64,000 nt of DNA from an uncultured Alphaproteobacteria bacterium (lineage in GTDB: Bacteria > Pseudomonadota > Alphaproteobacteria > Micavibrionales > UBA1664). Location of the stretch: contig CALSUG010000001.1 in assembly GCA_943789475.1 (NCBI GenBank), forward strand, positions 62,001 to 126,000. Reading direction: 5' to 3'. Shown piece by piece: positions 4,416-43,240 of the stretch; position 1 is the first letter of the stretch, and each line of letters opens with the position of its first letter. Under the pieces are notes generated by a model. The model had not been told where the DNA came from. It was given only the letters and a program-made list of their open reading frames with translations, and searched no databases. A program made the position numbers and the translations under genes.

Positions 4416-4506
4416 GGACAGTTGGCAGAGCGGTTGAATGCACCGGTCTTGAAAACCGGCATAGGTTTATAGCCTATCCAGGGTTCGAATCCCTGACTGT
4501 CCGCCA
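4416..4506 (+). tRNA. tRNA-Ser (anticodon UGA), attachment site of element 1
   Basis: A complete cloverleaf of 91 nt with encoded CCA. The acceptor arm GGACAGT pairs with ACTGTCC, the anticodon stem CCGGT/ACCGG closes the loop CTTGAAA (anticodon TGA), there is a long class II variable arm (ATAGG...CCTAT), and a T arm CAGGG TTCGAAT CCCTG. The discriminator base is G, as expected for tRNA-Ser. The 3' end is the junction with a GC-richer integrative-element remnant, and TCCGCCA is repeated at 7363-7369. Confidence 0.97.
4500..4506 (+). repeat. Putative att core copy, element 1 left (TCCGCCA)
   Basis: The last seven bases of tRNA-Ser including the encoded CCA. The same heptamer recurs in the same orientation at 7363-7369 where AT-rich chromosomal sequence resumes. 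Its short length makes chance occurrence possible; the coincidence with the compositional edge is the argument. Confidence 0.55.
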
Positions 4507-6014
4507 TTATCTTCTTTTGGCAAGAAAACCCCTCTAACACCTTGAATGGTAAGGTGGTTTTTGGTGTTCGAAGTCCTTCATTTCGCGCATAGGTAATTTG
4601 CTCTGCAAAGGCCAGTCTCAGGACAGTTCGTTGGGCAATCAGATTGCCACTTTTCCAGAGTTTCCAAGGGTTTGACAGGAATTGCAGGGCGTGTTCGAAC
4701 ATTTGCTCGAAGGTATGCATTGGCTTTCCTTGGTTTTGCAGTTTTTCGTCTAAAATCAGCTTCTCACGCTCCATCTTTTCGATGCGCTTCTCGTAGGCGG
4801 TGATCAGGGTTGGGCTATCCGCGTCCACAACACGATCCAGAAGGCCTTCGATTTGCTTATCCAGTTTGTTGCGCTCCGTGCGGATCAGGCGTTTGTCAGC
4901 CTCCATTTGTCCCGCACGTTGCCCCCAAGCGTCTTTGAACATCTTTGACGCCATTGCAAACATGCCCTCGGATGGTTTGAGGCTTTGCATCAATTCGTCA
5001 AACTCACCTTCGAGCACATCACGACGGATCGATTTGCGATAGCTCGGGCATCCTTTGGCGTGGCAGAGGTAATACGGATGTTTCTTTCCCGACTTGCTGG
5101 TGGACCAGCAGGCCGTCAGAGGCGTGTTGCAGTCATCGCAGCACACGAACCCCCGCAGAGGGAAGTCCGCATTGATATCCTTGCGTGCGGGCGCTCTGGC
5201 CCCGTCCTTGATCCGTTGCTGGATCAATTCATGGGTCTCCAATGAGATCAGACCTTCATGATGGCCTTTGCGCAGCGACACATCCCACTCAGGGATTTCG
5301 ATGTAACCCGCAAAATGCGTGCGGGTCATCAGACGGATGATCCGTTCAAAACGGATCGTGCCATCAGCAAAATCTTTCGGGAACGCAGGTTTGGATTCCA
5401 GAAACCGTTTCACTTCGGCCTGTGTTTCAAAATGACCAGAGGCAAACCCTTCCAAGGCCTCTTGGATGATGGATGCCAAAGGTTCATCCCGCACCAGCAT
5501 ATTGCCATGCCCCGCAACGCGCTCATACTTGTATCCAATCGGGGCGCGGAACACCCAGTAACCATTAAGCGCACGCCCCGCATACGGTTTTTGGTTTGCT
5601 CGCCGTTTTTCTGACGTTGGTGCTGGGACACAGACGCCAGCAGGTTCTCGACCAGAATGCTGTCACTGTCCTCACCAAATTCAATCGACGGGCTTTCCAG
5701 CTTGCCGCCCGCTTCGGCCAGCAGCGCCCGCAGTTGCCAATGCCCGACCACATCCCGCGCAAAGCGGTTGATGTCGTCAATGATGACAACGCAGGTTTCC
5801 TTTTGCGCTTTCAGGTACGCCAGCAGTGCAATCATGGCAGGACGATCAGCATCACCACCCGATTTGTTGTCATTGAAGACCTCAAGCACCTCATAGCCCT
5901 TATACCGCGCATATTCGCGGCAACGGCTTTCTTGCGACGCCAACCCATCACCCTTTTTCAATTGAGCGACGCTCGAAACGCGGGCGTAAATGACGGCGTG
6001 TTGTTTTGTTTCCA

Positions 6015-6337
6015 TTAAAGACTCCCTTCCTGTTGCGCGTCAGTCTCGGGGGCTGCGGCAGTTTCAAAAGTTGTTTTGGTATTGGGTAAGTTTAGCACAT
6101 CCTGTGACGGGCATTTCTGCCAAAGACACGTCTTTTCCACAGGCCTGTTGGACGGGGTGTATACCCGAACCCAAGATCGACAAAACTGACCATGATGGAC
6201 CACAGGGCTTCGATCAGTTCGCGCTTGTGTTCGTCCGAGATATCTTCATCTTCGAAGAATGGAAGATAGGCATCCCAATCAATCGTCAGGCGCGGCGGGG
6301 CCGTTTCGGGATTAAATTCTGGGGGAATGTCGGTCAT
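6015..6337 (-). pseudogene. Small conserved ORF upstream of recombinase, frameshifted
   Basis: Starts MTDIPPEFNPET at 6337 behind GAGG on the minus strand. The first 57 or so codons read cleanly (…'EALWSIMVSFVDLGFG'), then an extra G near 6167-6171 pushes the frame. Skipping it gives 'IHPVQQACGKDVSLAEM', and a further shift is needed to reach 'TKTTFETAAAPETDAQQEG' and the TAA that overlaps the recombinase ATG (TAATG). Short acidic ORFs of this kind sit directly before serine recombinases in other alphaproteobacterial elements (recalled knowledge). Function is unknown; a directionality or regulatory factor is possible but speculative. Confidence 0.6.
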
Positions 6338-6512
6338 GGCCTGCCTCTTTCTGCCTCTCGGCGTTTCTCTGGTTCGGGGTCTCCTTTGTTGCCTCTCAAT
6401 GTGAGAGAACATAAGTGGAACAATATAGGATATTATTCCCAAGACCCGAAGCGATAATTTTCTGGCTTCGAGGTCTGGATATCCTAAAATACCACTGCAA
6501 TGGCCGTAGGTT

Positions 6513-6529
6513 GCGGGTAAAATCGGGTA
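6513..6529 (+). repeat. Tandem heptamer (G/T)CGGGTA x2, 10-bp pitch
   Basis: GCGGGTA and TCGGGTA start 10 bp apart, one helical turn, about 20 bp before the start of the 88-aa gene at 6550. A matching pair on the opposite strand occurs in element 2 (39580-39596). It is a candidate operator or accessory protein-binding site shared by the two elements. Confidence 0.45.
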
Positions 6530-6549
6530 GTTTTGAGGCAAGGATTTTG

Positions 6550-6816
6550 ATGTGGATAACAATTGGAAGATCAGCGACCAAAGCTGACCGTGCCGCCCTC
6601 TATCATGTTGCCCGTGCGGTTGCGGACACCACCAACCTGAGCGTGGAAGCCATTATGGAGCAGGCCTTTGGTCACAAGCTGATGGTTGGCACTGACTATC
6701 TGTCCAATTTCCGCAGTGGAGCCATCGGACGCCCCAAAGCCAAGCTGATCCACGCTTGGATCGCAGAACACCATTCTGAGACGGCGCATAACCTTCTTCT
6801 TGCCAGTCCAGGGTGA
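6550..6816 (+). CDS. Small element-encoded protein, unknown function (88 aa)
   Basis: ATG at 6550 has AAGGA five bases upstream. The product is helical and alanine-rich ('RAALYHVARAVADTTNLSVEAI', with 'AFGHKLMVGTDYL' and a basic 'GRPKAKLIHAWIAEHH'). I recall similar proteins in alphaproteobacterial integrative elements but know no assigned function. It is transcribed away from the recombinase operon, with about 210 bp between the divergent starts that contains the tandem heptamer. Its 3' part is antisense to the tail of the minus-strand ORF 6653-7063, so one of the two is probably shortened by a deletion junction near 6800-6816. Confidence 0.5.
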   Translation: MWITIGRSATKADRAALYHVARAVADTTNLSVEAIMEQAFGHKLMVGTDYLSNFRSGAIGRPKAKLIHAWIAEHHSETAHNLLLASPG

Positions 6817-7063
6817 TATCATCTGTATTCAGGTTCAGCGGTGGCTTTTGCGCTTTTTCAGGGATGAACTCGGCTTCGAGAGTACCGTCCTGATCTTCGA
6901 TCACAACCTTGGACTTGCCGCCGTGTGTACCGTGGATCGTGAAACTCATCGGATCAGATACGAACTTTATCTGCTCAGTTTCAGCCTGTTTTGTTGGCTT
7001 TGGTTCTTGTGGCGAAGTGGCTTTGGCAAACGCGTCTTTGCTGTTTGAGGGTGATTTATTCAT
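6653..7063 (-). CDS. Element-encoded protein, probably 3'-truncated
   Basis: Start at 7063 (MNKSPSNSKDAFAKA) is preceded by GAGG seven bases upstream. The first about 85 residues look genuine: a charged Lys/Pro/Gln-rich N-terminus and 'MSFTIHGTHGGKSKVVIED', ending near 'LNLNTDDITLDW'. The remaining codons are antisense to the plus-strand 88-aa gene and read as low-complexity Trp/Ser/Cys-rich peptide, so the natural C-terminus was probably lost at a deletion near 6805. No recognised domain. Confidence 0.4.
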   Translation of the reverse strand: MNKSPSNSKDAFAKATSPQEPKPTKQAETEQIKFVSDPMSFTIHGTHGGKSKVVIEDQDGTLEAEFIPEKAQKPPLNLNTDDITLDWQEEGYAPSQNGVLRSKRGSAWLWGVRWLHCGNWTDSQCQPSACDQRPAP

Positions 7064-7092
7064 GATGGACCTCACAAAATCAAAGAAATGAA

Positions 7093-7114
7093 ATTGGCGG
7101 GTTTCCCCGCCAAT
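7093..7114 (-). terminator. Perfect 9-bp hairpin with tetraloop
   Basis: ATTGGCGGG and CCCGCCAAT flank a TTTC loop (GAAA on the minus strand). It lies just after the stop codon (7120) of the truncated minus-strand gene and is followed on that strand by T-rich sequence, consistent with an intrinsic terminator. Confidence 0.6.
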
Positions 7115-7119
7115 CAAGA

Positions 7120-7412
7120 TCATTCAGCGGCTTGTGCCAGTACTGGTTCAGCCTGCAAATCCACACCCAAGGGCTTCAATTCAGGATCGTCATGCCAGCG
7201 CACCTTGTCGGCGCGAAGCGGATACGGGTGGGTGCCACGGTCAACAAATGGCGGTCGCTTTTGTAAGACACCCAATCAAGATCACCATCCACATTCATGG
7301 CCTTGCCGATGCGGATGCCATCTGTGCCATAGAGATCGTTTTCCTGAAGATCATCTTTTGTATCCGCCACAGTTATAATATCATTACTTGGATTAGGGAT
7401 TATTAGCCTCAC
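7120..7412 (-). pseudogene. Truncated and frameshifted gene at right end of element 1
   Basis: The reading frame enters from the AT-rich side across the putative att core and encodes 'NDLYGTDGIRIGKAMNVDGD' and 'LDWVSYKSDRH'. A single-base shift near 7230-7255 moves into the frame encoding 'RGTHPYPLRADKVRWHDDPE', 'LKPLGVDLQAEP' and 'VLAQAAE', with TGA at 7120. The second half has the base composition of the element. No domain recognised; it is a remnant whose 5' part was cut off by the element boundary. Confidence 0.5.
7363..7369 (+). repeat. Putative att core copy, element 1 right (TCCGCCA)
   Basis: Direct copy of the tRNA-Ser 3' terminus at the right edge of the GC-rich block; sequence to the right (CAGTTATAATATC...) is AT-rich like the chromosome. 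If correct, the uninterrupted chromosome had tRNA-Ser followed directly by this AT-rich sequence. Confidence 0.5.
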
Positions 7413-7485
7413 CTTGCTACAATATCTAAATATGTTTTAGATACACAAGATTAAGTGATGTACAAACTTAATTTTTGAATAAATA

Positions 7486-7512
7486 TTGACATATATTAAA
7501 ATCCTCTATAAA
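7486..7512 (+). promoter_or_regulatory. Possible promoter for the 227-aa protein gene
   Basis: TTGACA (7486-7491) and TATAAA (7507-7512) are separated by 15 bp, shorter than the optimal 17. The predicted start of transcription would be close to the ATG at 7521, giving a very short leader. Confidence 0.3.
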
Positions 7513-7520
7513 CATACCTC

Positions 7521-8204
7521 ATGAATAAATTAGACAAAATTTTATCCAACCAACTCAGAAAAGCTTTCATTTCTGCTCTATACACAGGATCACGCACACC
7601 TCTAGATAATTTTAAAATACGCGCACAATCAATGCAAGAACGGGCATTAGACAGGTATACAAACATCATTCACGAATCCGAAATGATGACATCACGAAAC
7701 ACATGCCCAAGCCTCGAACGAGAAAGAAGAAATCTATTCTTAGAAAATGACGGATCACCGGCGGAGCTTCTCAAAAAAGTTAAGGAACTAGAACACAAAC
7801 ACATAGAACATCTAAAAAAGAGAGCTATCACTGCGAAAGAAAATATGACAAAAATCGATCGCATTCAACAAGCCAGATATTTGGTAGACAACTTAGAAAC
7901 AGATAAAGAATCATTTAGCCCCATAAACAATTTAGTCAATATCTCTGCAAAGTCTATAGGCGCAAGTATTGGGATTGGTATCGCCTCCCTCATCATGACA
8001 TCCTTCGCCCCCCCACTCACCCAAATATTCACAGTGGCGGCTGTATTTCTACCCCCACAACTAATCTTACAAGCATATAAAAATAACCACGATTATCAAA
8101 ATAAAATATCTAAGGGACTCAACTTAGTAGAAAGTTCATTTCCAAGCAGAGAAAAAATATCAGATCGAGCAAAGGCTATGACTTTACCCCTATTAAAAAA
8201 GTGA
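7521..8204 (+). CDS. Hypothetical membrane-associated protein (227 aa)
   Basis: No family recognised. The N-terminal two thirds are highly charged and helical, likely coiled coil (for example 'ELLKKVKELEHKHIEHLKKR'). Residues of about 150-185 form a hydrophobic region with one or two membrane-spanning helices ('IGASIGIGIASLIMT' and 'IFTVAAVFLPPQLIL'), followed by a basic tail. Composition is AT-rich like the chromosome, so it lies outside element 1. There is no strong Shine-Dalgarno sequence before the ATG. Confidence 0.6.
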   Translation: MNKLDKILSNQLRKAFISALYTGSRTPLDNFKIRAQSMQERALDRYTNIIHESEMMTSRNTCPSLERERRNLFLENDGSPAELLKKVKELEHKHIEHLKKRAITAKENMTKIDRIQQARYLVDNLETDKESFSPINNLVNISAKSIGASIGIGIASLIMTSFAPPLTQIFTVAAVFLPPQLILQAYKNNHDYQNKISKGLNLVESSFPSREKISDRAKAMTLPLLKK

Positions 8205-8286
8205 TGACAACTCGCGCCTCACCCCTTCGCGTTTAAAAACAATTCAGGTATATTACCTTCATTGAATTTTCAGTGAGGACAGACCT

Positions 8287-10869
8287 ATGACAAACGCACA
8301 ACCAAAAACAATTTATTTAAAAGATTACGAGGCGCCAACGCACACAATTGAAAACACGTATTTAACGTTTGAATTGTTTGAAGGGCATACATTTGTCACA
8401 CAAAAAACAATCTATAAACGCGATGCGTCCAAACGTGCCGACCTTAAATTACACCACGGTAAAGACATCGACCTTGTTCATGTACACGTGAATGGTAAAA
8501 ACATCATAAATTACAAACTGAATACTGAATTTTTAACCATTCCCTGCCCTGGCGATGATTTCACATTAGAAATTAAAACAAAAATTCGCCCTGAAAAAAA
8601 TACATCACTTAACGGACTTTATAAATCAGGTGGCAATTACACAACACAGTGTGAAGCGGAAGGATTCCGCAATATTACATTTTGGATGGATCGTCCCGAT
8701 GTCATGACCATTTTTACGGTTCGTATTGAGGCTGACAAAGATAAATACCCTGTCTTACTATCCAACGGTAACTGCATCGAAAACGGCGATCTTGATGGCG
8801 GTCGTCATTTTGCCGTGTGGCATGACCCTCATAAAAAACCATGTTACCTATTCGCGCTTGTTGCCGGTGATTTAGTCATGAAAGAAGATTTTTTCAAAAC
8901 CATGTCGGGCGACAAGGTCACATTACGCATTTACACACGCGATGGCGATTTACCACAGGTTGATTTTGCGATGCAAGCATTAAAAGATTCCATGAAATGG
9001 GATGAGGAAGCATACGGCCGTGAATATGATTTGGACATTTTCAACATCGTTGCCGTTGGTGATTTCAACATGGGGGCAATGGAAAACAAATCATTGAACA
9101 TTTTCAACACTGCGCTTGTTTTGGCGGAACAAAAAACAGCAACTGATGCTGATTTCCTTCGCGTTGAACGCGTCATTGGACACGAGTATTTCCACAATTG
9201 GTCGGGAAACCGTGTCACATGCCGTGACTGGTTCCAATTATCCCTCAAAGAAGGATTTACCGTTTATCGTGAAAACCAATTTGGACAGGCGATGAATGAC
9301 GCGGTGACCGAACGCATTGACGAGGTCACATTATTGCGCGATCTACAATTTTCCGAAGATGCATCCCCCATGGCGCACCCTATTCGCCCTGAAGAATATA
9401 TCGAGATCAACAATTTCTATACCATGACTGTGTACGAAAAAGGCGGCGAAGTCATCCGCATGATTAACACACTTCTTGGTGATGATATGTATCGCAAGGG
9501 ATCGGACCTTTACTTCTCTCGTCACGACGGCGATGCCGCGACATGTGATGACTTCTTAAAAGCGATGCAAGACGCAAGCGCGAATAAATATTTGGATCAA
9601 TTCAAATTATGGTATTCGCAAGCCGGAACACCCATTGTGACCGCGAAATCAATATATGATGAGAAAAAGAAAAAGGTCACAATCACATTCACGCAAAGCA
9701 CTCCTGACACACCGGGACAGAAAAATAAAAATCCTGTCGTTATTCCGATTAAAACAGGTCTCATTGGCAAAGACGGCGTTGATATTGATGAATCACTATT
9801 AATCATGACAAAGGGTCAACAAGAATTTACTTTTGAAAATATTGATGAAGAACCAGCGATATCCTACCTACGTGGTTTTTCCGCGCCTGTTATTTTGAAC
9901 ACAGATCAAACGGAAAGTGATTTGATATTCCAACTTCGTCATGACAGTGATGGGTTTAACAAATGGGAAGCCGCGCAAAAAATTATGCTCTCTGTTTTGA
10001 ACAGTGATAGTAATGACCTGCCCGATGGTTTCATCGATGCCCTGCATAATTGTGTTCACACACTGAAAGATCACAACAAAGCCTTGCTTGTACGTTTATT
10101 AACACTACCAGGTGATAGCACTATTGCCGCAAAGCAAAAACACATTGATCCTGATAAAATTGCACGGGGCAAGGATGCATTAACAAAAGCAATCGCAAAC
10201 GCTCTATCCGATGATTTGAACATGTTATACGAAACATGTGCACCCACGGATGATTTTTCAACATCGCCCGAGGCAATGGCACGACGTGCCCTGCGCAACC
10301 TCATCCTTAAACACAAATTATCCGTTGATGAAGGTGGTGCCATCCGCGCGGCATTTGACCAATATTCAAACGCCACAACGATGACCGAAAAATTGGGATC
10401 ATTGGCGGTTTTGGTTGAAACCGATCGCCCAGAACGCGACCATGCCATCGCCAATTTTTACGAAGAATATCAACAATACCCATTGGTCATTGATAAATGG
10501 TTTTCGGTGCAGGCATGTTCCGCACGGCACGACACACCCGCGCGCGTGGCCGAATTGTTAAATCACCCTGATTTTACATTGGATAACCCAAACCGCACTC
10601 GTGCCCTCATCGGTGCATTTGCCATGCGCAATCAAAAGGGCTTCCATGTTTTATCCGGTGAAGGATACAAAATTTTGACCGACATCGTGATCAAATTAAA
10701 CGATAAAAACCCACAAATTGCATCACGCATGTTAACGCCAATGCGTGGGTGGAAATCATACACAGCTGATCGTCAAAAATTAATGAAGGCGCAATTAAAA
10801 CGCATCATGGATCAAGACAACCTATCCCCCGATGTCTTTGAAATTGTTAGCAAATGTCTCAAAGGATAA
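8287..10869 (+). CDS. pepN: Aminopeptidase N (M1 family)
   Basis: Cytosolic zinc aminopeptidase that removes N-terminal residues from peptides. The substrate-binding GAMEN motif is at residues 263-267; the zinc site HEYFH is at 299-303 with the third ligand E322 (HExxH-X18-E). At 860 aa it matches proteobacterial PepN, with the N-terminal beta domain and C-terminal helical repeat domain in place. GTGAGGA precedes the ATG. The 3' end overlaps the rnhB start by 16 bases in a different frame, suggesting coupled translation. Confidence 0.96.
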   Translation: MTNAQPKTIYLKDYEAPTHTIENTYLTFELFEGHTFVTQKTIYKRDASKRADLKLHHGKDIDLVHVHVNGKNIINYKLNTEFLTIPCPGDDFTLEIKTKIRPEKNTSLNGLYKSGGNYTTQCEAEGFRNITFWMDRPDVMTIFTVRIEADKDKYPVLLSNGNCIENGDLDGGRHFAVWHDPHKKPCYLFALVAGDLVMKEDFFKTMSGDKVTLRIYTRDGDLPQVDFAMQALKDSMKWDEEAYGREYDLDIFNIVAVGDFNMGAMENKSLNIFNTALVLAEQKTATDADFLRVERVIGHEYFHNWSGNRVTCRDWFQLSLKEGFTVYRENQFGQAMNDAVTERIDEVTLLRDLQFSEDASPMAHPIRPEEYIEINNFYTMTVYEKGGEVIRMINTLLGDDMYRKGSDLYFSRHDGDAATCDDFLKAMQDASANKYLDQFKLWYSQAGTPIVTAKSIYDEKKKKVTITFTQSTPDTPGQKNKNPVVIPIKTGLIGKDGVDIDESLLIMTKGQQEFTFENIDEEPAISYLRGFSAPVILNTDQTESDLIFQLRHDSDGFNKWEAAQKIMLSVLNSDSNDLPDGFIDALHNCVHTLKDHNKALLVRLLTLPGDSTIAAKQKHIDPDKIARGKDALTKAIANALSDDLNMLYETCAPTDDFSTSPEAMARRALRNLILKHKLSVDEGGAIRAAFDQYSNATTMTEKLGSLAVLVETDRPERDHAIANFYEEYQQYPLVIDKWFSVQACSARHDTPARVAELLNHPDFTLDNPNRTRALIGAFAMRNQKGFHVLSGEGYKILTDIVIKLNDKNPQIASRMLTPMRGWKSYTADRQKLMKAQLKRIMDQDNLSPDVFEIVSKCLKG

Positions 10870-11441
10870 TCGCAGGAATTGACGAGGTTGGACGCGGGCC
10901 ATTGGCCGGCCCCGTCGTTGCTGCATGTGTGCATATTCCAGACACGGCACAAGATATGCCATGGATGGTTGACGTTACCGATAGCAAAAAATTAACCAAG
11001 GCAAAGCGTGAACGCCTCTCACCCTTAATTGAACAACATTGCGTTTGTGCGATTGCGGAACTCTCCCCGCAAGAGATTGATGATATCAACATCCTACAGG
11101 CAACCTTCCGCGCGATGGAACGCTCTGCAAACGATCTCCCCATCACACCTGACTATCTTTATATCGATGGCAACAAGGTTCCCCCTCACCTCCCTTGCGA
11201 CGGAGAGGCGATTGTAAAGGGGGACAGCAAGGTCAAAGAAATCGCATGTGCATCTATTATCGCAAAGGTCTATCGCGACAAAATAATGGAACATTTGTCG
11301 AACGAATTCCCACATTATGGATGGGACACCAATTCAGGATACGGTACAAAAAAACATATCGAAGGAATCCAAAAATACGGCGTAACGACTCATCACCGCC
11401 ATTCCTTCGCACCCGTTCGGAATCACAAGGAATCCGCATAA
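10854..11441 (+). CDS. rnhB: Ribonuclease HII
   Basis: Removes RNA from RNA-DNA hybrids and single embedded ribonucleotides. Catalytic acidic residues are visible in 'AGIDEVGRGPLAGPVVAA' (D10, E11) and the mid-protein 'DYLYIDGNKVP'; the conserved 'KGDSKVKEIACASIIAKVYRD' region (residues about 120-141) follows. Length of 195 aa is typical. It begins inside pepN and is followed 49 bases later by ccrM; adjacent rnhB and ccrM is a common alphaproteobacterial order. Confidence 0.96.
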   Translation: MSQRIIAGIDEVGRGPLAGPVVAACVHIPDTAQDMPWMVDVTDSKKLTKAKRERLSPLIEQHCVCAIAELSPQEIDDINILQATFRAMERSANDLPITPDYLYIDGNKVPPHLPCDGEAIVKGDSKVKEIACASIIAKVYRDKIMEHLSNEFPHYGWDTNSGYGTKKHIEGIQKYGVTTHHRHSFAPVRNHKESA

Positions 11442-11462
11442 AAAATAATTTTTATTTTTTTC

Positions 11463-12654
<1,192 letters not shown>

Positions 12655-12693
12655 TTGGTTGACTTTTACATTTTAGATTGATAGATATACACC

Positions 12694-12897
12694 ATGAATA
12701 AATTACTAAAAAGCGTTACAACACGCATGCACATGGCATCAAATGCTAACCAAGATCGCATCTCAATTACACCAGATATGGTTGAGGCGACATTGAAAAT
12801 AGACATGGATACATGGCGTTATTTCGAAAATTTGGACGAAGACACACGCCAAATGATGTCACGTGTTTTAAAAGATTACGTTGAGAACCAGAAATAA
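12694..12897 (+). CDS. Hypothetical small protein (67 aa)
   Basis: Short gene between ccrM and lgt on the same strand. The product is acidic and helical, with an N-terminal basic stretch (MNKLLKSVTTRMHMAS) and a C-terminal 'RQMMSRVLKDYVENQK'. No domain recognised. Base composition and third-position pattern fit the neighbours, so it is probably real, but no strong ribosome binding site precedes the ATG. Confidence 0.5.
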   Translation: MNKLLKSVTTRMHMASNANQDRISITPDMVEATLKIDMDTWRYFENLDEDTRQMMSRVLKDYVENQK

Positions 12898-12937
12898 TTG
12901 GTTCTCACACCTCCCCCTAGCATGCTAAACAATATGC

Positions 12938-33877: not shown

Positions 33878-33905
33878 AAAACCGCTTTTAAGCGGTTTCT
33901 TTTTT
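33878..33905 (+). terminator. Intrinsic terminator
   Basis: AAACCGCT and AGCGGTTT pair around a short T/A loop, followed by CTTTTTT. Ends the 77-aa gene transcript. Confidence 0.85.
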
Positions 33906-33964
33906 ATCCGCTATGTAGTGATTTAAAGCAACAAACATTTATATTTTTCATATAAATCAATCGA

Positions 33965-34447: not shown

Positions 34448-34511
34448 GGTTTTCTCCTTATTTGCATAAATTATACATATTTCATTTTTAAAAGTCAAAA
34501 CTTAAATTTTC

Positions 34512-34541
34512 TTGACATTTCCCCTTTAACAACGCTATAAC
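34512..34541 (+). promoter_or_regulatory. Promoter of ffh operon
   Basis: TTGACA (34512-34517), 18-bp spacer, TATAAC (34536-34541). Transcription from about 34548 gives a leader of about 90 nt before ffh. Confidence 0.65.
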
Positions 34542-34548
34542 CTGTACA

Positions 34549-34637
34549 AATTCATGAGAGCTGGAATAATTTCAGTGCTTAACGGTACACCCAAGTCGGC
34601 GAATACGCTCACTAGGGATAAAATGGTTATATAATTA
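34549..34637 (+). ncRNA. Candidate structured ffh leader RNA
   Basis: The untranslated leader between the predicted promoter and ffh can form a hairpin CTGGA/TTTCAG (within 34561-34576) enclosed by a possible GAGC...GCTC pairing (about 34557-34560 with 34610-34614 region), followed by an AT-rich single-stranded region up to the ATG. An 'ffh' cis-regulatory RNA motif upstream of alphaproteobacterial ffh genes has been described from comparative genomics; I recognise the context but cannot verify the match, so this is tentative. Confidence 0.35.
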
Positions 34638-36203: not shown

Positions 36204-36236
36204 TTTAATTTTAGTAACATATAAAGGAGTAAACAA

Positions 36237-36719
36237 ATGGCACTAAAAATGAGAATGGCACGCGGTGGCCGCAAAAAAGCACCGTTTTATCGTATCGTTG
36301 TTGCGGATGCCCGCGCACCACGCGATGGTAAATTCATTGAAAAAGTAGGTACATACAACCCACTTTTAAACAAAGATGACACAAACCGTGTGACTTTGAA
36401 CACTGAATTGGTAAAAAAATGGTTGGCAGAAGGCGCACAACCTTCAGAGCGTGTTGCACGTTTCCTTGGTGAAGCAGGCCTAATCGACATGCCGAAAAAC
36501 CGTACTTCAATTGAGAAAGCTAAGCCAAAGGCAAAAGCAGTTCAAATGGCGGCGGACAAGGCTGAAAAATTAGCAGCACAAGCCGAAGCAGCAAAAGAAG
36601 CTGAAGAAGCAGCAAAGGCAGAAGCCGAAGCAGCGGCAGCAGCCCCTGCGGAAGAAGAAGCTCCAGCCGAGGAAGCATCTGCAGAAACACCAGCTGAAGA
36701 AGAGACTAAAGCTGAATAA
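36237..36719 (+). CDS. rpsP: 30S ribosomal protein S16 with long acidic tail
   Basis: The core domain (about residues 1-82, '[20 protein letters not shown]', 'GTYNPLL', '[12 protein letters not shown]') is canonical. It is followed by an approximately 75-residue Ala/Glu/Lys-rich extension, roughly doubling the usual length (about 80-90 aa). Alphaproteobacterial S16 often has such tails, but this one is long. AAAGGAG lies eight bases before the ATG. The 3' end overlaps the rimM reading frame. Confidence 0.97.
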
Positions 36720-37176
36720 TCAAATCCACATCGGAACAATACGTGGTGCGCACGGGGTGAAAGGCCTTGTGCGCATTGCTGTGTTTGCCGATGACACGTC
36801 CCTATTCGATTATGAACCAACATATAAAATCACCCTTAAAAACAAGCACAAGGGCAATGTATGGCTGGCGGATATTGATGGTATCAATAACAAAGAAGAC
36901 GCCGATGCATTAAAGGCAACAAAGCTTTATTGTGATCGTGATCAACTTACCCCTCCATCAGATGATGAAATATATTTTGCCGATATGGTTGGCATGCAAT
37001 GTGTTGATGAAGATGGCACAATCATTGGCGAGGTTACATCCGTTGATAATTTTGGTGCAGGTGATTTATTGGATATAAAACCACCACAGGGGCATAATTT
37101 CTTCCTATCCTATGATGATAACACTGTCTTATCAATCGATGATAAAATTACAGTGAGAATTCCAGAAATACTCTAA
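36712..37176 (+). CDS. rimM: 16S rRNA processing factor RimM, non-canonical start
   Basis: Ribosome maturation factor for the 30S head domain. The N-terminal RimM motif reads '[18 protein letters not shown]', followed by a PRC-barrel domain ('[20 protein letters not shown]'). The first ATG/GTG/TTG in frame is the GTG at 36757, which lies inside the conserved HGVKG motif and cannot be the true start. The open frame continues upstream through the end of rpsP with CTG codons (for example 36712) as candidate starts, or the start is hidden by a sequence error. The end coordinate is firm; the start is provisional. Confidence 0.85.
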
Positions 37177-37202
37177 AAATAAGTCATTTAAAAAAGAACA
37201 CA

Positions 37203-37673
37203 TCAAGATTTCTTAGTTAAAAAATCAACAAACTCTCTATATTTGTCTGCACTCTCAAAATAATTTTTCTCTAAAAAACAATTTCTACTTTCCAAACGAA
37301 CGACCCCATATTTACGAAAATTATGCGTGTATACATCAACTTTAATAATTTTATTGTAGTATATATTTCTCTCTTTATTGAACGGTGACGCTGGATAAAT
37401 AAAGTGATCACTTTTTACTTCTATATAACCAATTCCATTTTTACATCTATGATAAATGGGAATAAACAATGAAGCAGCTAACAAAAATGAAACAGCTCCG
37501 AATATATAGAAAATTCTCATTTCTCCATCAGGATGTAAAGAATTTTTGCTGGAAAAGGGATCTGACACCTCATATCCCATCCAAGTAAAATATGCTGACA
37601 AAGATCCAAGCATAAAAACTCCTACAATCCCAAAACTTATAGGGTAAGAATATCGGTATTTTTTATTTTGCAT
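37203..37673 (-). CDS. Hypothetical membrane protein (156 aa)
   Basis: Two N-terminal membrane helices ('SFGIVGVFMLGSLSAYFTWM' and 'IFYIFGAVSFLLAASLFIPI') followed by a cytosolic domain of about 80 residues resembling PH-like folds ('YIEVKSDHFIYPASPF', 'KIIKVDVYTHNFRKYGVVRL'). No family assigned. It lies between rimM and element 2; the trmD and rplS genes that commonly follow rimM are not present in the window. Confidence 0.55.
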   Translation of the reverse strand: MQNKKYRYSYPISFGIVGVFMLGSLSAYFTWMGYEVSDPFSSKNSLHPDGEMRIFYIFGAVSFLLAASLFIPIYHRCKNGIGYIEVKSDHFIYPASPFNKERNIYYNKIIKVDVYTHNFRKYGVVRLESRNCFLEKNYFESADKYREFVDFLTKKS

Positions 37674-37728
37674 TTTCTAAACCTTAAAACAAGTACTTAC
37701 AAAAAAATACGAACTATTTGGAAAAATC

Positions 37729-37736
37729 AATGGTGG
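37729..37736 (+). repeat. Putative att core copy, element 2 left (AATGGTGG)
   Basis: Eight-base direct copy of the tRNA-Leu terminus (minus-strand CCACCATT) exactly where AT-rich chromosome gives way to GC-rich element sequence. Confidence 0.5.
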
Positions 37737-37743
37737 ACAAGGA

Positions 37744-37917
37744 GTGCCAACGCTAGAACCACAAGACGGCCCGTCTGTGTTGGAAGAACTGGAGCGCTGG
37801 GAAGCGGTTTTGGCGGATGATAAGAAGGCGTCACATCGTCTTCGTGAGTTGGCCAAAGAAGCTGGTGATCCCGTTTCCTCCTCACAACCACCAAAATTGC
37901 GGGGGCCACGACCATGA
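37744..37917 (+). CDS. Small ORF before mobC, possibly 5'-truncated
   Basis: An open frame enters at the left att copy and ends as TGA overlapping the mobC ATG (ATGA), the arrangement expected of a coupled upstream gene. A GTG at 37744 is a possible start but has no properly spaced ribosome binding site, so the gene may be truncated by the element boundary. The peptide includes 'LEELERWEAVLADDKKASHR' and ends Pro/Arg-rich. No domain recognised. Confidence 0.35.
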   Translation: MPTLEPQDGPSVLEELERWEAVLADDKKASHRLRELAKEAGDPVSSSQPPKLRGPRP

Positions 37918-38924
37918 GCCGTCCTGCACCCTTTTCATTGCGTTTGACTGAAGACGAACGGCAGCGGTTAGAAGCGCAGGCGGGTGGGATGCCGCTTGCG
38001 TCTTATATCAAGTCGGTGGTGTTTTCGGAGGATGCGCCGAAACATCGGGCGCGGCGCAGGCCTCCGGTGGCGGAGCAGCAATTGCTGGCGGAGCTATTGG
38101 CGCGGTTGGGACAAATGCGGCATGCGAATAATCTCAACCAGATCGCGAAGCACCTTAATCAAGGCACGTTGGTGGTTGATCCGCGCGAGATCAAGCAAGG
38201 GTTCCGGCAGGCGTGGGAACACTCAGATAACCTCAAATCTTTGTCCAATGCGCTGGAAGAACGTGGTTGTTATCTGGCACGTGGGGATCGGCGTGGCTTT
38301 GTGGCGCTGGATGTGCATGGCACGGTGTTTTCGCTGGCCAAATGGTCGGGTGTGCGCAGCAAGGATGTGGCGGCCAAACTGGGAAAACCGGATGGGTTAC
38401 GGCCCGTCTCTGAGGTGCAGGATGATCTGCGCAATCGGCTGAAAGATCAGATGAAGGGCTACATTCGGCAGGTGAATGAACGTCATGCGGATGAGGCAAA
38501 ACCTTTGCGTCATGAACGTGATGAGATGGTGCAGGCACAACGCGCGGAACGTAAGATGCTCGCGTCCCGTCAGGGAAAGCGTTGGCAGGCTGAGACCAAA
38601 GCCCGTTCTGATCGGTTGAACAAAGGCCTGCGCGGGATCTGGGATCGTATGACGGGTCAGGCCAAGGCTACGCGTAAGACAAATGAGGCCCATGCAATCA
38701 AATGCGCCAAACGCGATCAGCTGCAGCGGGATCGGCTGGTTCAGGCGCAGATCAAAGACCGCAAGGCTTTGCAGAATCGCATTTCCGCCCTGCGTCAGAA
38801 ACAGAAACGAGACCGCCAGATTTTGCTGCGCGATATGGTGCGCTACATCCGACGACAGGACCCGGAACAGCAGCGAAAGGCACACACACTTAAACGGAGC
38901 CGTGGTTTGGGGCGCAGCCTGTGA
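37914..38924 (+). CDS. MobC-like N-terminus fused to relaxase C-terminal region
   Basis: Residues 1 to about 88 match plasmid mobilisation protein MobC ('SLRLTEDERQRLEAQAGGMP', 'LASYIKSVVF', 'RHANNLNQIAKHLNQGTL'). From about residue 92 the sequence matches the portion that follows the catalytic domain in MobA/VirD2-type relaxases ('SDNLKSLSNALEERGCYLAR', 'GDRRGFVALDVHG', 'RSKDVAAKLG') and ends in a long Arg/Lys/Gln coiled coil. The relaxase catalytic domain with its Tyr and HxH motifs is missing. This is best read as an in-frame deletion that joined two adjacent genes. Codon and base composition are unlike the host genes. Confidence 0.75.
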   Translation: MSRPAPFSLRLTEDERQRLEAQAGGMPLASYIKSVVFSEDAPKHRARRRPPVAEQQLLAELLARLGQMRHANNLNQIAKHLNQGTLVVDPREIKQGFRQAWEHSDNLKSLSNALEERGCYLARGDRRGFVALDVHGTVFSLAKWSGVRSKDVAAKLGKPDGLRPVSEVQDDLRNRLKDQMKGYIRQVNERHADEAKPLRHERDEMVQAQRAERKMLASRQGKRWQAETKARSDRLNKGLRGIWDRMTGQAKATRKTNEAHAIKCAKRDQLQRDRLVQAQIKDRKALQNRISALRQKQKRDRQILLRDMVRYIRRQDPEQQRKAHTLKRSRGLGRSL

Positions 38925-38926
38925 TG

Positions 38927-39217
38927 TCAGGTGGGATCAGTGATCCAGTCTTCATGAGCATGGCGCACGCGGATGATCAGGATGTCCTGATCTTCAATCT
39001 GGTAGAGGATGATATGTGAACGAAACGGATGGACGCGCACGGGTGGGTTAAACTCTGTTCTTTCGCGTCCCATCCCGGGATTGCCCGTCAGCAAATCAAA
39101 TACTGCGTAAAGTGCATTGTGATAGGCCTGCGCCTGACTTGCACCGAACATCTCAATGCCAGTTTCGGCAATTGATCTGATGTCGTCTTCGGCGGATTGC
39201 GTCAGGCGGATGTTCAT
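38927..39217 (-). CDS. parE: ParE/RelE-family toxin
   Basis: Type II toxin of 96 aa. Begins 'MNIRLTQSAEDDIRSIAET' and has the fold-typical 'LLTGNPGMGRERTEF', 'VRVHPFRSHIILYQIEDQ' and 'ILIIRVRHAHEDW'. ParE proteins usually inhibit DNA gyrase, RelE proteins cleave ribosome-bound mRNA; the sequence is closer to ParE. The start overlaps the antitoxin stop (ATGA). It is one of the few intact genes of the element. Confidence 0.9.
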   Translation of the reverse strand: MNIRLTQSAEDDIRSIAETGIEMFGASQAQAYHNALYAVFDLLTGNPGMGRERTEFNPPVRVHPFRSHIILYQIEDQDILIIRVRHAHEDWITDPT

Positions 39218-39495
39218 TCGGAGGTGGCGTTCCCGCCCTGAGCGCTGCTCTGAGCGCTGGCCTGAACACGGGCCAGTGCATCGTTGAAAATATCTTCTTT
39301 GGAACGGGTGCTGACACCACTGGCGCGGCCTTCCTCCACCAGCGCCTGCAAATGCGCAATCTTGTCATTCCGTTCCTGATCACGGCGGATCAGATCACGC
39401 ACATAGTCGCTGGCATTGCTGTAACGCCCGGTCTGACTTTGCGCCTCAACCCATTCCTTCATCGGGTCGGGTAAAGATACATTCATCGTTGCCAT
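39214..39495 (-). CDS. parD: ParD-family antitoxin
   Basis: Ribbon-helix-helix antitoxin: 'MATMNVSLPDPMKEWVEAQS', 'GRYSNASDYVRDLIRRDQE', then a flexible C-terminus that binds ParE. The start at 39495 is chosen because GGAGG lies eight bases upstream and the conserved N-terminus begins there. Overlaps parE by four bases. ParD normally represses its own promoter; a direct repeat TGGCA-N5-TGGCA overlaps the promoter spacer. Confidence 0.92.
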   Translation of the reverse strand: MATMNVSLPDPMKEWVEAQSQTGRYSNASDYVRDLIRRDQERNDKIAHLQALVEEGRASGVSTRSKEDIFNDALARVQASAQSSAQGGNATSE

Positions 39496-39516
39496 GTGCA
39501 GATCCTCCATAGGGAT

Positions 39517-39546
39517 AGTATGGCACATTTTGGCAATCTTTGTCAA
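39517..39546 (-). promoter_or_regulatory. parDE promoter with repeat operator
   Basis: On the minus strand TTGACA (39541-39546), 18-bp spacer, CATACT (39517-39522). Within the spacer TGCCA occurs twice, ten bases apart, a plausible ParD binding site. Confidence 0.55.
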
Positions 39547-39579
39547 AATCAGAAGCTGTTGCAGCGCAGCACATCCGAT

Positions 39580-39596
39580 TACCCGCAACTACCCGC
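39580..39596 (-). repeat. Tandem heptamer GCGGGTA x2, 10-bp pitch
   Basis: TACCCGC at 39580-39586 and 39590-39596 (GCGGGTA on the minus strand), lying between the divergent parDE and virD4-like genes. The same tandem arrangement occurs in element 1 at 6513-6529. Confidence 0.45.
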
Positions 39597-39635
39597 TCGT
39601 TACCTCGGGTCAGAACTGCGGTCTCTTCTTATGCC

Positions 39636-39669
39636 TTGGTCACGTTCAATTTTGTAATGGAGTGACCAA
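39636..39669 (+). promoter_or_regulatory. 8-bp inverted repeat enclosing the virD4-like ribosome binding site
   Basis: TTGGTCAC (39636-39643) and GTGACCAA (39662-39669) are perfect complements separated by 18 bp. The second arm touches the GGAG ribosome binding site and ends one base before the ATG at 39670. It could be an operator or an RNA hairpin controlling translation. Confidence 0.5.
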
Positions 39670-40450
39670 ATGAACTTTAATGGAAATGACTTTAAGCCGG
39701 GACATATCGTTCTGGCGCTGACGGGCATCATTGCCCTTCTGCTGCTGTTCCCGGCTCTTGCAGAGCTGGATCGATCCGTGTGGCAGCGTGACTATAACAA
39801 GATCCTGCCTGCGATCCGGATCTGGATGATTGTGGGGTCCAGTCTGGCCGGGTTTGCCCTTGGCTGGTTTCTCTCACCGCAGGCATCTGAACTGCGCGCG
39901 ATTGTCGGGGCCACGGTTGCGGGCCTCGCGATCTTTGTCGCCACCTTTAACAATGATGCGCTTGGATGCGCGTTGCCTGCAGAAAGAGGAAAAACTGCTG
40001 TCTGGCGTCTTTGCCACCCTGCAATCGCACACGCATTTTCTGGACAGTCCGCGTGTGCAGGACAGCCTGTCGCGCTCGGATTTTAAGTTTGAGGATCTGA
40101 AAACCAAATCCCTGTCGATCTATCTGGCCATCCCGGCGGATCGTTTGCAGGCCTTTGCACCGCTGCTGCGTATTCTGGTGCAACTGGCGATCACGGTGAA
40201 CGCCCGCAATATTGAGGTGCAGCCGGAACGTCCCATCCTGTTTATTTTGGATGAGATGCCCGCGCTTGGTCGTCTGCCCGCGATTGAACAGGCCTATGGT
40301 CTGATGGCCGGATATCCGGATGAGCTGCGCCGCATGCACAAAAGCAATCAATTGCTGTTCATCGACAACATGCCGCCTGTGATCGCCAAACGCCGCCGTT
40401 GGTTTGAGGATGCAATCCTCAAATCCAAAGGTGTGAACCTGCACAAGTGA
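39670..40450 (+). pseudogene. VirD4/TraG-type coupling protein, collapsed by deletions
   Basis: The N-terminal part (39670 to about 39965) encodes two or three membrane helices ('HIVLALTGIIALLLLFPALA', 'SLAGFALGWFLSP') like the anchor of T4SS coupling ATPases. It then joins, out of frame, to a segment read to 40450 that matches the C-terminal ATPase half: 'QKEEKLLSGVFATLQSHTHF', 'DLKTKSLSIYLAIPADRLQA', Walker B-like 'ILFILDEMPALGRL' and 'QAYGLMAG'. A second, in-frame gap joins 'AYGLMAG' to 'YPDELRRMHKSNQLLFIDNM'. Walker A and several hundred residues are lost. Function as a coupling protein is impossible. Confidence 0.75.
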
Positions 40451-40521
40451 TCTGACAGACCGCCCCGGCAGAGCATATTGTCGGGGTGGCTCCTTTCCCC
40501 AAAATACACCGGAGATCCCTC

Positions 40522-40791
40522 ATGACGTTCCATGAGATCAACAACGCCCACTGGGCTGAGGTCACGCTGCTGCTCTCTCCCAGTGATTTTATGAAAGCCG
40601 CCCGTCTTGGTGGCATGCAGATTGAACACGAAGACATTCTGGCGGTCTGGCATGCCCTGCAAAGCCAGCCAGATCAACGCAAAGACTACGCTGATACGGT
40701 CGCGTGGTTCTGTCAGGTGCTGCTGGATGAGTTCGCTTTTGAAGCCGCCTTCCGCCACCCATCTCCCTTCACAAACAACAAAAACCGCTGA
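40522..40791 (+). CDS. Small element-encoded protein (89 aa)
   Basis: Start at 40522 (MTFHEINNAHWAEVTLLLSP) is supported by GGAG about eight bases upstream. Soluble, helical and acidic with 'EDILAVWHALQSQPDQRKDY' and several aromatics. No family recognised. First of three short same-strand ORFs downstream of the virD4-like gene, in the position where conjugation elements often carry accessory genes. Confidence 0.55.
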   Translation: MTFHEINNAHWAEVTLLLSPSDFMKAARLGGMQIEHEDILAVWHALQSQPDQRKDYADTVAWFCQVLLDEFAFEAAFRHPSPFTNNKNR

Positions 40792-40806
40792 TCACAGGAG
40801 GCGTCC

Positions 40807-41103
40807 ATGTCCAATCATCCGAAAAAACCATTTAATCTGAATACTGATCCTGAACAGGATATCTTGCGCGACAAAGACAATGCAGCCCCGCGCCATGAAC
40901 CAAAGATAGAGCGCAAACCCGCCCCCAACCTCGCCCCCGGTGGAAGCATGGGCATCCGACGGGGTTTGCCTTCCAACGATAAAGGCAAAGATGGCGACAA
41001 AGCCAACAAACGCTTTGCACTGGGACAGAAAGGCGATGCATCAAAAGAGTTCAACATCGCCGCCCGAAAACCTCCGGATAAAGACCGCAGCCGGGGGCGA
41101 TAG
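40807..41103 (+). CDS. Small element-encoded protein (98 aa), charged and disordered
   Basis: CACAGGAGG lies seven bases before the ATG. The product is rich in Lys, Asp, Pro and Arg ('PKIERKPAPNLAPGGSMGIR', 'SNDKGKDGDKANKRFALGQK') with no predicted hydrophobic core; likely intrinsically disordered. Family unknown. Confidence 0.55.
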   Translation: MSNHPKKPFNLNTDPEQDILRDKDNAAPRHEPKIERKPAPNLAPGGSMGIRRGLPSNDKGKDGDKANKRFALGQKGDASKEFNIAARKPPDKDRSRGR

Positions 41104-41152
41104 GAATATCCGCCCATAGCGTCAGACGGTACAAATCTGGTATCCTGATCAC

Positions 41153-41527
41153 ATGAACCACCAGAATTATGTCCGATGGCTGCGCGAGGCCGAACATCTA
41201 TCCAAAGATTACCACGTCACCTCCCGCAGCTATCCCAATCCTCACGGCGCAGACGAGTTGATCTTCCTGCCTCAAAACTACTGGCATTACGTCGATTGGC
41301 TGGAAGCAAACACCGACATCACCTTCGCCGACTGGGTCACTCACTGCGCCCAAAATCCCCATAAGACCACCCCGATCTCCCACCTGCTGATGTACTGGCT
41401 CTGGCAGGACGAATGTTGCAGATGGATCAACAACGCCCCCCGCCCAAATGGCCCAGCACCCAAAGGCCTGAAGCTGTGGACCGCGAAATACAAGGGGCAA
41501 AACTGGCGTGTGGGCATGACGGGCTGA
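41153..41527 (+). CDS. Small element-encoded protein (124 aa)
   Basis: Trp/His/Tyr-rich protein ('MNHQNYVRWLREAEHLSKDY', 'NYWHYVDWLEANTDITFADW', 'ISHLLMYWLWQDECCRWI'). No family recognised. GC-rich codon use like the rest of element 2. No strong Shine-Dalgarno sequence is visible, so the start is less certain. Confidence 0.5.
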   Translation: MNHQNYVRWLREAEHLSKDYHVTSRSYPNPHGADELIFLPQNYWHYVDWLEANTDITFADWVTHCAQNPHKTTPISHLLMYWLWQDECCRWINNAPRPNGPAPKGLKLWTAKYKGQNWRVGMTG

Positions 41528-41829
41528 TCGACGTATTGTAGGGCGAACGAACAGACCGGGCCTTCGTGCAATTTACGTCTAACGGCAGCACCCAGCCCGG
41601 AGCAGTCATTGCCCATCTTCACCGAAAGTGAAAAGCTGACATTTAGTAAGAAATTGGTTAAGTTCTGCTTTGCGGGACAAAGCGGTCATTGGCCTCGCGA
41701 ATACAAAGGACCGTCATCAAACAAACACCAAGTCAGGAACGGTCATGATTGCCGAGGCCAAAAAATGTCCGGGCTAAATTATCATTATTGTGAGCGGTCA
41801 ACCAAAGGCCATCAGAACAAAAAGAACTG
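41528..41829. other. Noncoding stretch in element 2
   Basis: No convincing gene. Contains repeated (G/A)CGGTCA motifs at about 41681, 41739 and 41796 plus the complementary-looking CCGTCAT at about 41711, and a 7-bp inverted repeat GGCCTCG/CGAGGCC at 41691-41697 and 41753-41759. It may be decayed coding sequence or a binding-site cluster. Confidence 0.4.
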
Positions 41830-42294
41830 TCAAGAATCCTGATGCTTAATTTTTTCTTTGAGCTTTTGCAGTTCCCTAGTGCCCTGTTCATCAGCAGTAG
41901 AACTAAAGAACAATAGGCCTAAATCCATACGTTCCAAAGGCGTTTTCGCGTGGGCGCGCATCTGATACGCGTTACGGTAAATCTCTTCGCACTTGAGAGC
42001 GTCCCATATGACGTCAATGATGCGCAGTCGATCAGAGGAGACGCTCGATGATAGGCTGTCATATAGTTGACTGTCCTCGTGTGTAACTTGCAACATGAGG
42101 CAAATATATAGAAAGGAACCCAATGAGTGTTCGGATGCAAATCGGGTTAATGGAGATTTTTTCTCACATGCATAGTGTTTACTAGTCTCGCGAAGAAAGA
42201 GTTTTGTCGAGTTTGTACCGCTATATGCAAAGCTGAACTCGTCTATAGCATTGTGAAGCGCATTATCGGTACAACACCCACAAAGGCTGAGCAC
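41830..42294 (-). CDS. Hypothetical protein in decayed part of element 2 (154 aa)
   Basis: Soluble-looking frame with six or more cysteines in its first 70 residues and a helical, charged C-terminus ('RTELQKLKEKIKHQDS'-like end). No family recognised. It follows fragments of a two-component system on the same strand and may itself be a remnant. Composition is intermediate between the element and the chromosome. Confidence 0.35.
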   Translation of the reverse strand: MLSLCGCCTDNALHNAIDEFSFAYSGTNSTKLFLRETSKHYACEKKSPLTRFASEHSLGSFLYICLMLQVTHEDSQLYDSLSSSVSSDRLRIIDVIWDALKCEEIYRNAYQMRAHAKTPLERMDLGLLFFSSTADEQGTRELQKLKEKIKHQDS

Positions 42295-42311
42295 TGCAGT
42301 GCTCGAAAAGT

Positions 42312-42365
42312 TTAGCCTATGGCAACTCGTTTTGCAGGATTGTCTTCAACAAGAAGAATTTTCAT
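42312..42365 (-). pseudogene. Response regulator N-terminal fragment
   Basis: ATG followed by 'KILLVEDNPAKRVAIG' and TAA. The motif LVEDNP is the classic start of a receiver domain with its acidic metal-binding pair; the gene is cut off after 17 residues. Confidence 0.45.
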
Positions 42366-42378
42366 GCCCACATTCCTT

Positions 42379-42597
42379 CTAGATATGAAACAAACTAAAT
42401 GACATTTGAATGCAGAAGAGAGAATGTTCCTCGTCAACAGACACAACAGTATTTGGTCTACCATCCTTCACAGTAGCTCGCGCTACCTTTGGGAGACCTG
42501 AGCCCCCTTCTTTCGAAAGCTGAGCCTCATATTCCCCAGTTTGAATTCGCTGGTTTGCAATCTTAGCCTCAGATATACCCTCCTCAATATTTGAGCA
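42379..42597 (-). pseudogene. Possible histidine kinase ATPase-domain fragment
   Basis: Minus-strand frame from about 42597 to 42379 encodes 'ISEAKIANQRIQTGEYEAQL' and 'SKEGGSGLPKVARATV', resembling the G2 box (GTGLGLPxxK) and end of a HATPase domain, but with two residues missing. A response-regulator start follows 14 bases downstream on the same strand, which fits a kinase-regulator pair. The longer upstream part of this frame is antisense to the recombinase fragment and is not part of it. Confidence 0.35.
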
Positions 42598-43175
42598 AGA
42601 CCAAAAGCTGTGCCAGCTATGGAAAATCAATCCGCCGGGACACGCTTGAAGGGGATGTCGGCGATCTGCTGCGCCAGCTTGAGCCCAACCCCAGCCTGTT
42701 TGCCATGGCCAAGGAGATGTTTCGCAAGGCGTGGGATATCCGCACGGCGCAGGTGGCACATGAAACGAAGACCTATGGCCACCAGATTCTGGAGGTCGAT
42801 AAGCAGATCAGCACCCTGCTGAACAGAATTGTGGAAACCGACAGCGCCACGGTGATCAGAGCCTATGAACAGAAGATCGACACATTGGATAAAGAGAAGA
42901 TCATTCTGCAGGAAAAACAGCTCAAAAAGGCCAAACCAGCGCGTGACTTTAACGCCACGCTAGAACTCTCCCTCCATTTCCTCGCAAACCCTTGGAAACT
43001 TTGGGAAAGTGGCAATATCACCCTGCGCAGAATGGTCCTGAAACTGGCTTTTACAGACCGTCTTGCATACTGTCGGAAAACAGGAGCTAGAACACCTGAA
43101 TTTTCTATGCCTTTCAAGGCTCTGACTGCACATTCAGGGATGTACGGAACGAATGGTGGGCCCGGGGGGACTTGA
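42598..43175 (+). pseudogene. Serine recombinase, C-terminal fragment
   Basis: Begins abruptly in the zinc-ribbon end ('CASYGKSIRRDTLEGDVGDL', with one Cys left) and continues through the coiled-coil and C-terminal domain ('QISTLLNRIVETDSATVIRA', 'LHFLANPWKLWESGNITLRR', 'TPEFSMPFKAL'). It aligns along its length with the recombinase of element 1. The N-terminal catalytic domain is missing. The frame enters tRNA-Leu and uses a TGA at 43173-43175 inside the tRNA gene as stop, so the recombinase C-terminus was encoded across the attachment site. Confidence 0.85.
43152..43159 (+). repeat. Putative att core copy, element 2 right (AATGGTGG)
   Basis: Spans the encoded CCA and discriminator of tRNA-Leu on the minus strand, plus two bases beyond. 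Matches the copy at 37729-37736 in the same orientation. Confidence 0.55.
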
Positions 43176-43240
43176 ACCCCCACTCCTATACAGGAAACGG
43201 ATTTTAAGTCCGCAGCGTCTACCGATTCCGCCACGGGCCC
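43154..43240 (-). tRNA. tRNA-Leu (anticodon UAA), attachment site of element 2
   Basis: 87 nt with encoded CCA. Acceptor GGGCCCG/CGGGCCC, anticodon stem GCGGA/TCCGT with loop CTTAAAA (anticodon TAA), long class II variable arm, and a T arm GGGGG TTCAAGT CCCCC. Its 3' end abuts element 2. Confidence 0.97.

Follow-up and report, generated by a model that had tools for sequence, protein, structure and literature searches.

Two probable decayed elements of a serine-integrase family that resides at the 3' ends of tRNA genes

The window analysed here is a 64-kb stretch, part of one contig, of the genome of an uncultured alphaproteobacterium of the order Micavibrionales (1.97 Mb in 9 contigs). It contains two GC-rich blocks, each abutting the 3' end of a tRNA gene. 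We consider it quite likely that both are decayed integrative and mobilizable elements (IMEs) of one family of serine integrases that inserts at tRNA ends and swaps the tail of its own integrase on integration, block 1 being assigned by its recombinase only. Directly observed in this family are a fixed register at the tRNA, different tRNAs occupied by near-identical enzymes, cores of 6 to 10 bp, a T-loop motif that recurs at a shifted position in the far end, and a displaced recombinase tail that stands in frame there. The window has two tRNA genes:

4416-4506, + strand: tRNA-Ser(UGA), target of block 1; the junction is its 3' end, TCCGCCA
43154-43240, - strand: tRNA-Leu(UAA), target of block 2

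The GC content is ~0.46-0.57 inside the blocks versus ~0.33-0.45 in most of the remaining window, and the GC-rich blocks begin at each tRNA 3' end. An earlier note on this DNA had placed them flush with the ends of these two tRNA genes, and the tRNA calls and the GC steps agree with it. It had also described a related serine recombinase facing the tRNA in each block; domains detected in block 1, and a match of the block 2 protein to that of block 1 (45% identity over 185 residues), bear this out. Both large serine recombinase (LSR) frames point antisense at, and into, their tRNA.

Relatives were collected from the window's genome and its relatives up to the same order (94 genomes searched, matches in 30), from a sample of the class (matches in 24 of 385 genomes) and from a scan with one genome per species, which gave more than 400 relatives, the best 80 of which were kept. 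Counted once per distinct C-terminal DNA and at a strong score, the members number 128, and 101 of them end at an intact tRNA 3' end, antisense to the CCA and in one fixed register. The family-wide look at tRNA adjacency that the earlier note had proposed thus had a clear outcome, and the idea that one recombinase family serves different tRNA genes through short cores at the CCA end holds for many isotypes. Two of the other 27 members lie at contig ends and 25 elsewhere. Among these 25, about 15-17 begin with a broken or masked tRNA 3' fragment (reaching to the anticodon loop or the T-loop), and two (L145 and L158) have the element's far end next. The members that lack an intact tRNA were therefore not kept as contradictions, since most of them adjoin a tRNA 3' fragment. 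Distant serine recombinases from the same searches (n=86) are distributed differently: 67 have some other neighbour, 10 lie at contig ends and 9 adjoin a tRNA, some of these 9 being N-terminal pieces of true members.

At two loci of genome G059 (L079, contig C2 near 250160, and L042, same contig near 788882), the matching tRNA-Ser 3' ends are found 44-45 kb away. At both, a second element of ~44-45 kb, related to that at the other locus, seems to have entered the tRNA-Ser gene within the T-loop and to have left the 3' fragment on the serine-recombinase element. Elements like these, arriving second and splitting a tRNA already occupied by the family, may be of the tyrosine-integrase type.

tRNA genes are general hot spots for islands (PMC12424338), and one could imagine that decayed recombinase genes merely came to rest there, by chance or by preference. 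The exact register recurs in many species, the displaced tail stands at a matching core, and the distant serine recombinases lie mostly away from tRNAs, so that we give practically no weight to this explanation. It is also very improbable that the islands were made by tRNA-targeting tyrosine integrases and that the serine recombinases are passengers. The 3' ends of tRNAs are indeed the typical niche of tyrosine integrases (PMC5704250, PMC8371274), but the serine recombinase frame ends in one codon register at the tRNA in more than 100 loci and its own gene resumes at the far core. In the family elements listed, the serine recombinase stands beside the tRNA and no other integrase was identified among the part of the open reading frames that was searched.

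By domains and fold, the family enzymes are classed as large serine integrases. The resolvase domain PF00239 is present in block 1 and in relatives, and the serine of the YxRVS motif is invariant in the alignments. The zinc ribbon PF13408 is found in block 1, while PF07508 exceeds the cut-off in two of the first three relatives and is weak or absent in others. The modelled L158 protein (predicted local distance difference test, pLDDT, 79) finds its best fold matches in 9dxh, 9iu2, 9tep and 4kis, and the family recombinase fold matches the integrases of SPbeta (9dxh, E 4e-18), Bxb1, PhiC31 and LI.

The intact sites belong to tRNAs for Arg, Ser, Leu, Ala, Tyr, Thr, Val, Glu, Phe and others. In genome G034, tRNA-Tyr and tRNA-Ala, and in G016, tRNA-Val, are occupied by recombinases that are 97-98% identical, which means that the target is not a single tRNA; others, with 95% identity, are found at tRNA-Leu and at tRNA-Ala. 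On a tree of 98 members, 22 isotype changes and 49 anticodon changes are required. Amid these changes the last six nucleotides of the target take five states only (GCGCCA, CCGCCA, CCACCA, GCACCA and ACGCCA), and therefore the last six bases, rather than the identity of the tRNA, appear to be matched. A tRNA-Val ending in TGCGCCA clusters with Arg tRNAs, and the discriminator base is A or G in the whole non-redundant set.

The far ends of the elements are marked by direct copies of the tRNA end, 6 to 10 bp long, longer repeats being found in tandem arrays. The earlier note had spoken of 7-8 bp cores: short cores at the CCA end were confirmed, with the somewhat wider span just given wherever far ends are known. 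When the near-identical elements in the Tyr, Ala and Val sites are compared, the element side is common at both ends and the sequence outside differs, and this comparison defines the boundaries in a way similar to an empty site. The far ends carry the sequence GTTCGAA, starting 29 nucleotides before the end of the CCA, in 18 cases at that offset versus 30 over 47 other offsets. The GTTCGAA of the tRNA T-loop sits 5 nucleotides closer to the CCA. This displacement, seen in the tRNA-side half-site of the family, matches the shift known for zinc-domain motifs of LSRs: in the Listeria LI integrase, the motif lies 5 bp further from the crossover in the attachment site of the element (attP) than in that of the bacterium (attB) (PMC3783163). 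The T-loop of the tRNA may thus be the zinc-domain motif of attB, with the far end as the attP half-site. As a separate observation, genome G034 contains a tandem insertion (L047, L089, L093, L053) in which a newer element occupies the tRNA and its far end is followed by C-terminal recombinase remnants at that tRNA.

When the element is circular, the frame of the recombinase crosses the core into the far end, where it codes a conserved tail, (S/T)SN.LFE.L..WE..LK, that ends at a stop codon of its own. The loci were scanned with a profile of the tail from which the junction codons had been left out. All 19 matches above 20 bits begin at a 6-7 nucleotide copy of the tRNA end of their own locus, and the weaker matches share 0-3 nucleotides with it; two of the 19 tails (L050 and G066) had not been used for training. 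After integration, the frame enters the antisense strand of the tRNA instead, which adds a median of 31 residues. Such a continuation of the free-form frame into the far end, seen in 19 elements and in block 2, places attP within the integrase gene, which is split upon integration. An uninterrupted free-form gene with the conserved tail is seen in L158 (6894-8516 of a Cerasicoccus frondis contig), away from any tRNA. We also note that C-termini such as GFEPAT, as annotated in family recombinases, are coded by the antisense tRNA (T-loop) and can mislead protein annotation.

The exchange of tails could be a by-product without function, with attP located 3'-terminally in the gene and no particular read-through sequence needed. 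The integrated tails differ widely, from 4 to 133 residues, the displaced tail is modelled as a helix with low confidence, and streptococcal serine integrases that target rumA likewise swap 3' ends with their target (PMC4701971). Against this, the free-form tail motif SN.LFE.L..WE is conserved across divergent members and its frame is kept open, which suggests a function in the free enzyme. We regard the by-product explanation as possible, with chances somewhat below even.

Block 2 combines these features at the tRNA-Leu:

37729-37736, - strand: far-end core CCACCATT (AATGGTGG on the + strand), a copy of the tRNA-Leu 3' end
37753-37758, - strand: TTCTAG, a T-loop-like motif at the attP offset, 28 nucleotides from the end of the CCA
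37729-37917, + strand: C-terminal recombinase tail, displaced and in the frame of the recombinase, NGGQGVPTLEPQDGPSVLEELERWEAVL...PRP*
37914-38924, + strand: in-frame fusion of a MobC-like start with the end of a MobA-type relaxase, as compared with intact relatives
38927-39217, - strand: ParE-type toxin (PF05016), cargo
39214-39588, - strand: ParD-type antitoxin (PF03693), cargo
39830-40450, + strand: fragment of a VirD4/TraG-type coupling protein (PF02534)
42591-43151, + strand: C-terminal fragment of the block 2 recombinase, its frame continuing into the antisense tRNA-Leu to 43175
43152-43159, - strand: near-end core CCACCATT, the last nucleotides of tRNA-Leu with the CCA, plus TT

The far-edge copy AATGGTGG, which the earlier note had proposed as a boundary, is accepted as the real attachment core on the evidence of the sequence, because the in-frame tail starts there, no other site in the window scores as high with the tail profile (11.7 bits), and a T-loop-like motif occupies the offset expected for it. 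The tail stop overlaps the start of the next, mobC-like gene as ATGA. Judged against intact relatives, the fusion of this gene with the relaxase points to an internal deletion, and the recombinase, without its resolvase part, is a C-terminal fragment only. The core, the resumed frame with its tail, the Mob fusion, the ParDE pair and the VirD4 fragment together identify block 2 as a predicted decayed IME of ~5.4 kb. In a relative of the same genus, another family member (L302, G004:C99, 3174-3943) is found at the same tRNA-Leu, next to uvrC, so that this tRNA is a repeated target.

Block 1, at the tRNA-Ser, is less complete:

4507-6015, - strand: large serine recombinase, frameshifted at ~5550-5580, C-terminus flush with the tRNA-Ser 3' end
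6016-7369, no strand assigned: remainder of block 1, with a second copy of part of it on contig C4 (87% identity)

The C-terminal end of the recombinase is 2 nucleotides from the tRNA end, and its resolvase (PF00239) and zinc ribbon (PF13408) domains are split over two frames because of the frameshift. No relaxase was seen in this block. The earlier note had taken TCCGCCA as its far boundary. The copy at 7363-7369 is the single one downstream in the 11.6 kb scanned and is close to the GC step, but it has neither a T-loop-like motif nor a tail and overlaps the start of a reading frame; it was not accepted, and the far end of block 1 has probably been lost or has decayed. The CCA-end targeting rule is independent of this boundary. 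Elsewhere in the window's genome, contigs C1 (L062) and C4 (L063) begin within further copies of the same recombinase, which brings the family recombinase to at least four copies. The assembly of this genome probably breaks at the recombinase elements. Far-end candidates on these other contigs were dropped, that of C1 being without a tail-like frame and that of C4 having a tail that fails the profile.

We propose the following scheme for integration. attB would be the tRNA 3' end and would consist of two parts, the generic T-loop GTTCGAA, 17-23 nucleotides before the final A, and the subfamily-specific last six nucleotides ending in RCCA, which would have to match the core of the element. attP would lie inside the recombinase gene, so that the circular element would code the full enzyme. 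Integration would shift the last ~30-60 codons to the far end, and the enzyme would gain a tail read from the antisense strand of the tRNA. The zinc ribbon domain may read the T-loop, and loss of the tail may alter the activity or the direction of the enzyme. Taken to its full extent, with the universal T-loop as the attB motif, any tRNA with compatible last six nucleotides as a target, and removal of the tail, replaced by antisense-tRNA codons, as an intrinsic switch out of integration and into a locked state, the scheme is tentative, only slightly short of an even chance.

Several observations weigh against it. Seven or eight of the members found elsewhere have no tRNA at their junction; those without an explained junction include L031, L130, L138, L174, L177, L179 and L184. 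The empty-site comparison proposed in the earlier note gave no clean site, either in the window's relatives or in DNA-level searches around G034 and Ancylobacter, because the 3' flank of the tRNA differs among the available species. In the window's relatives, the side with tRNA-Leu, a pentapeptide gene and uvrC is kept in G001, G003, G004 and G005, and the opposite side of the tRNA has no match to the window. In the other half-site we found no clear matching motif, nor a symmetry centre for the crossover dinucleotide. The T-loop-like motif of block 2 matches at 4 of 6 positions only, and for block 1 the tail profile and the motif offset check revealed no recognisable tail or far-end motif in the window. 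Moreover, the far-end motif also codes the Ser-Asn of the recombinase tail, and its codon invariance (Ser is TCG in 14 of 14, Asn is AAC in 16 of 16) is partly circular, because most far ends were first found by core or by motif; the circularity is smaller for the tail profile with its two additional cases.

This double role of the motif leads to another interpretation, in which the link with tRNAs is real, recognition uses the last 6-10 bp and flanks only, and the far-end TTCGAA is kept because it lies within the coding sequence for the conserved SN. The clustering of target isotypes by their last six nucleotides fits such a model. Yet the far-end motif is shifted by +5 from the T-loop, exactly as zinc-domain motifs of LSRs are, the Ser and Asn codons are invariant, with the circularity just mentioned, and in block 2 a related motif stands at the same offset but in another frame. 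Six bases alone would also be too frequent a signal, since there are 434 copies of the core in the regions examined, while the insertions are at tRNAs. We find recognition by the core and flanks only rather unlikely, and retain the two-part attB as the working scheme.

The relatives carry a relaxase (PF03432), MobC and a VirD4-type protein, as is characteristic of IMEs, some members being without a visible relaxase; no full conjugation set was seen, in a search for conjugation genes that was non-exhaustive. The family is common in Alphaproteobacteria, where most members are found, and is present in other phyla. It also occurs in Gamma- and Betaproteobacteria, in Nitrospirota, in a bin labelled Bacteroidetes and in Cerasicoccus, a member of the Verrucomicrobiota.

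Compared with known systems, the family resembles the integrases of Listeria A118/LI, Bxb1, PhiC31 and SPbeta in the order resolvase - recombinase - zinc ribbon, in fold and in the short core, and, as far as the tRNA-side half-site shows, in a probable 5-bp shift of the motif between attP and attB. Those among them with known sites use other loci, whereas the present family uses the 3' ends of tRNAs of many isotypes and has attP in its own gene. The rumA-targeting serine integrases of streptococcal integrative and conjugative elements and IMEs share with it the short repeats, one of them in the integrase gene, and the swapping of 3' ends with the target (PMC4701971), but they have a single protein-coding target, read in another frame, with no tRNA and no generic motif. 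The archaeal "suicidal" tyrosine integrases of the SSV type (SSV1, pTN3, pT26-2) are alike in that attP lies inside the integrase gene, the targets are tRNAs and the gene is split; one group uses up to 14 different tRNA genes (PMC8371274). They belong to an unrelated enzyme class, have cores of 40-50 bp and have their gene cut into two large parts, while the present family, in which serine domains and fold were found in place of a tyrosine recombinase, loses the C-terminal tail only. The tyrosine integrases of bacterial islands also leave their target tRNA gene intact; they too are of an unrelated class and usually use longer blocks of tRNA identity.

In the open-access literature we found no earlier description of a tRNA-end rule for serine integrases, and a large LSR survey of 2022 never mentions tRNA (PMC10083194). 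Such a rule would overturn the common expectation that serine integrases avoid tRNA genes, would give a simple and testable recognition code (T-loop plus last six nucleotides), would make available integrases that could be directed to the tRNA loci of many bacteria, and would provide a bacterial, serine-type counterpart of the archaeal self-splitting integrases. On the practical side, the displaced tail can delimit islands of this family; with cores of only 6-10 bp, they would escape ordinary searches for direct repeats.

Isolated phages gave no close relative of the recombinase, identity being ~27% or less among the matches listed. Plasmids carry C-terminal remnants of the family, and the remnants on large plasmids of Phaeobacter, Tritonibacter, Devosia and Paracoccus (L344-L347) sit at tRNA genes in four of the four checked.

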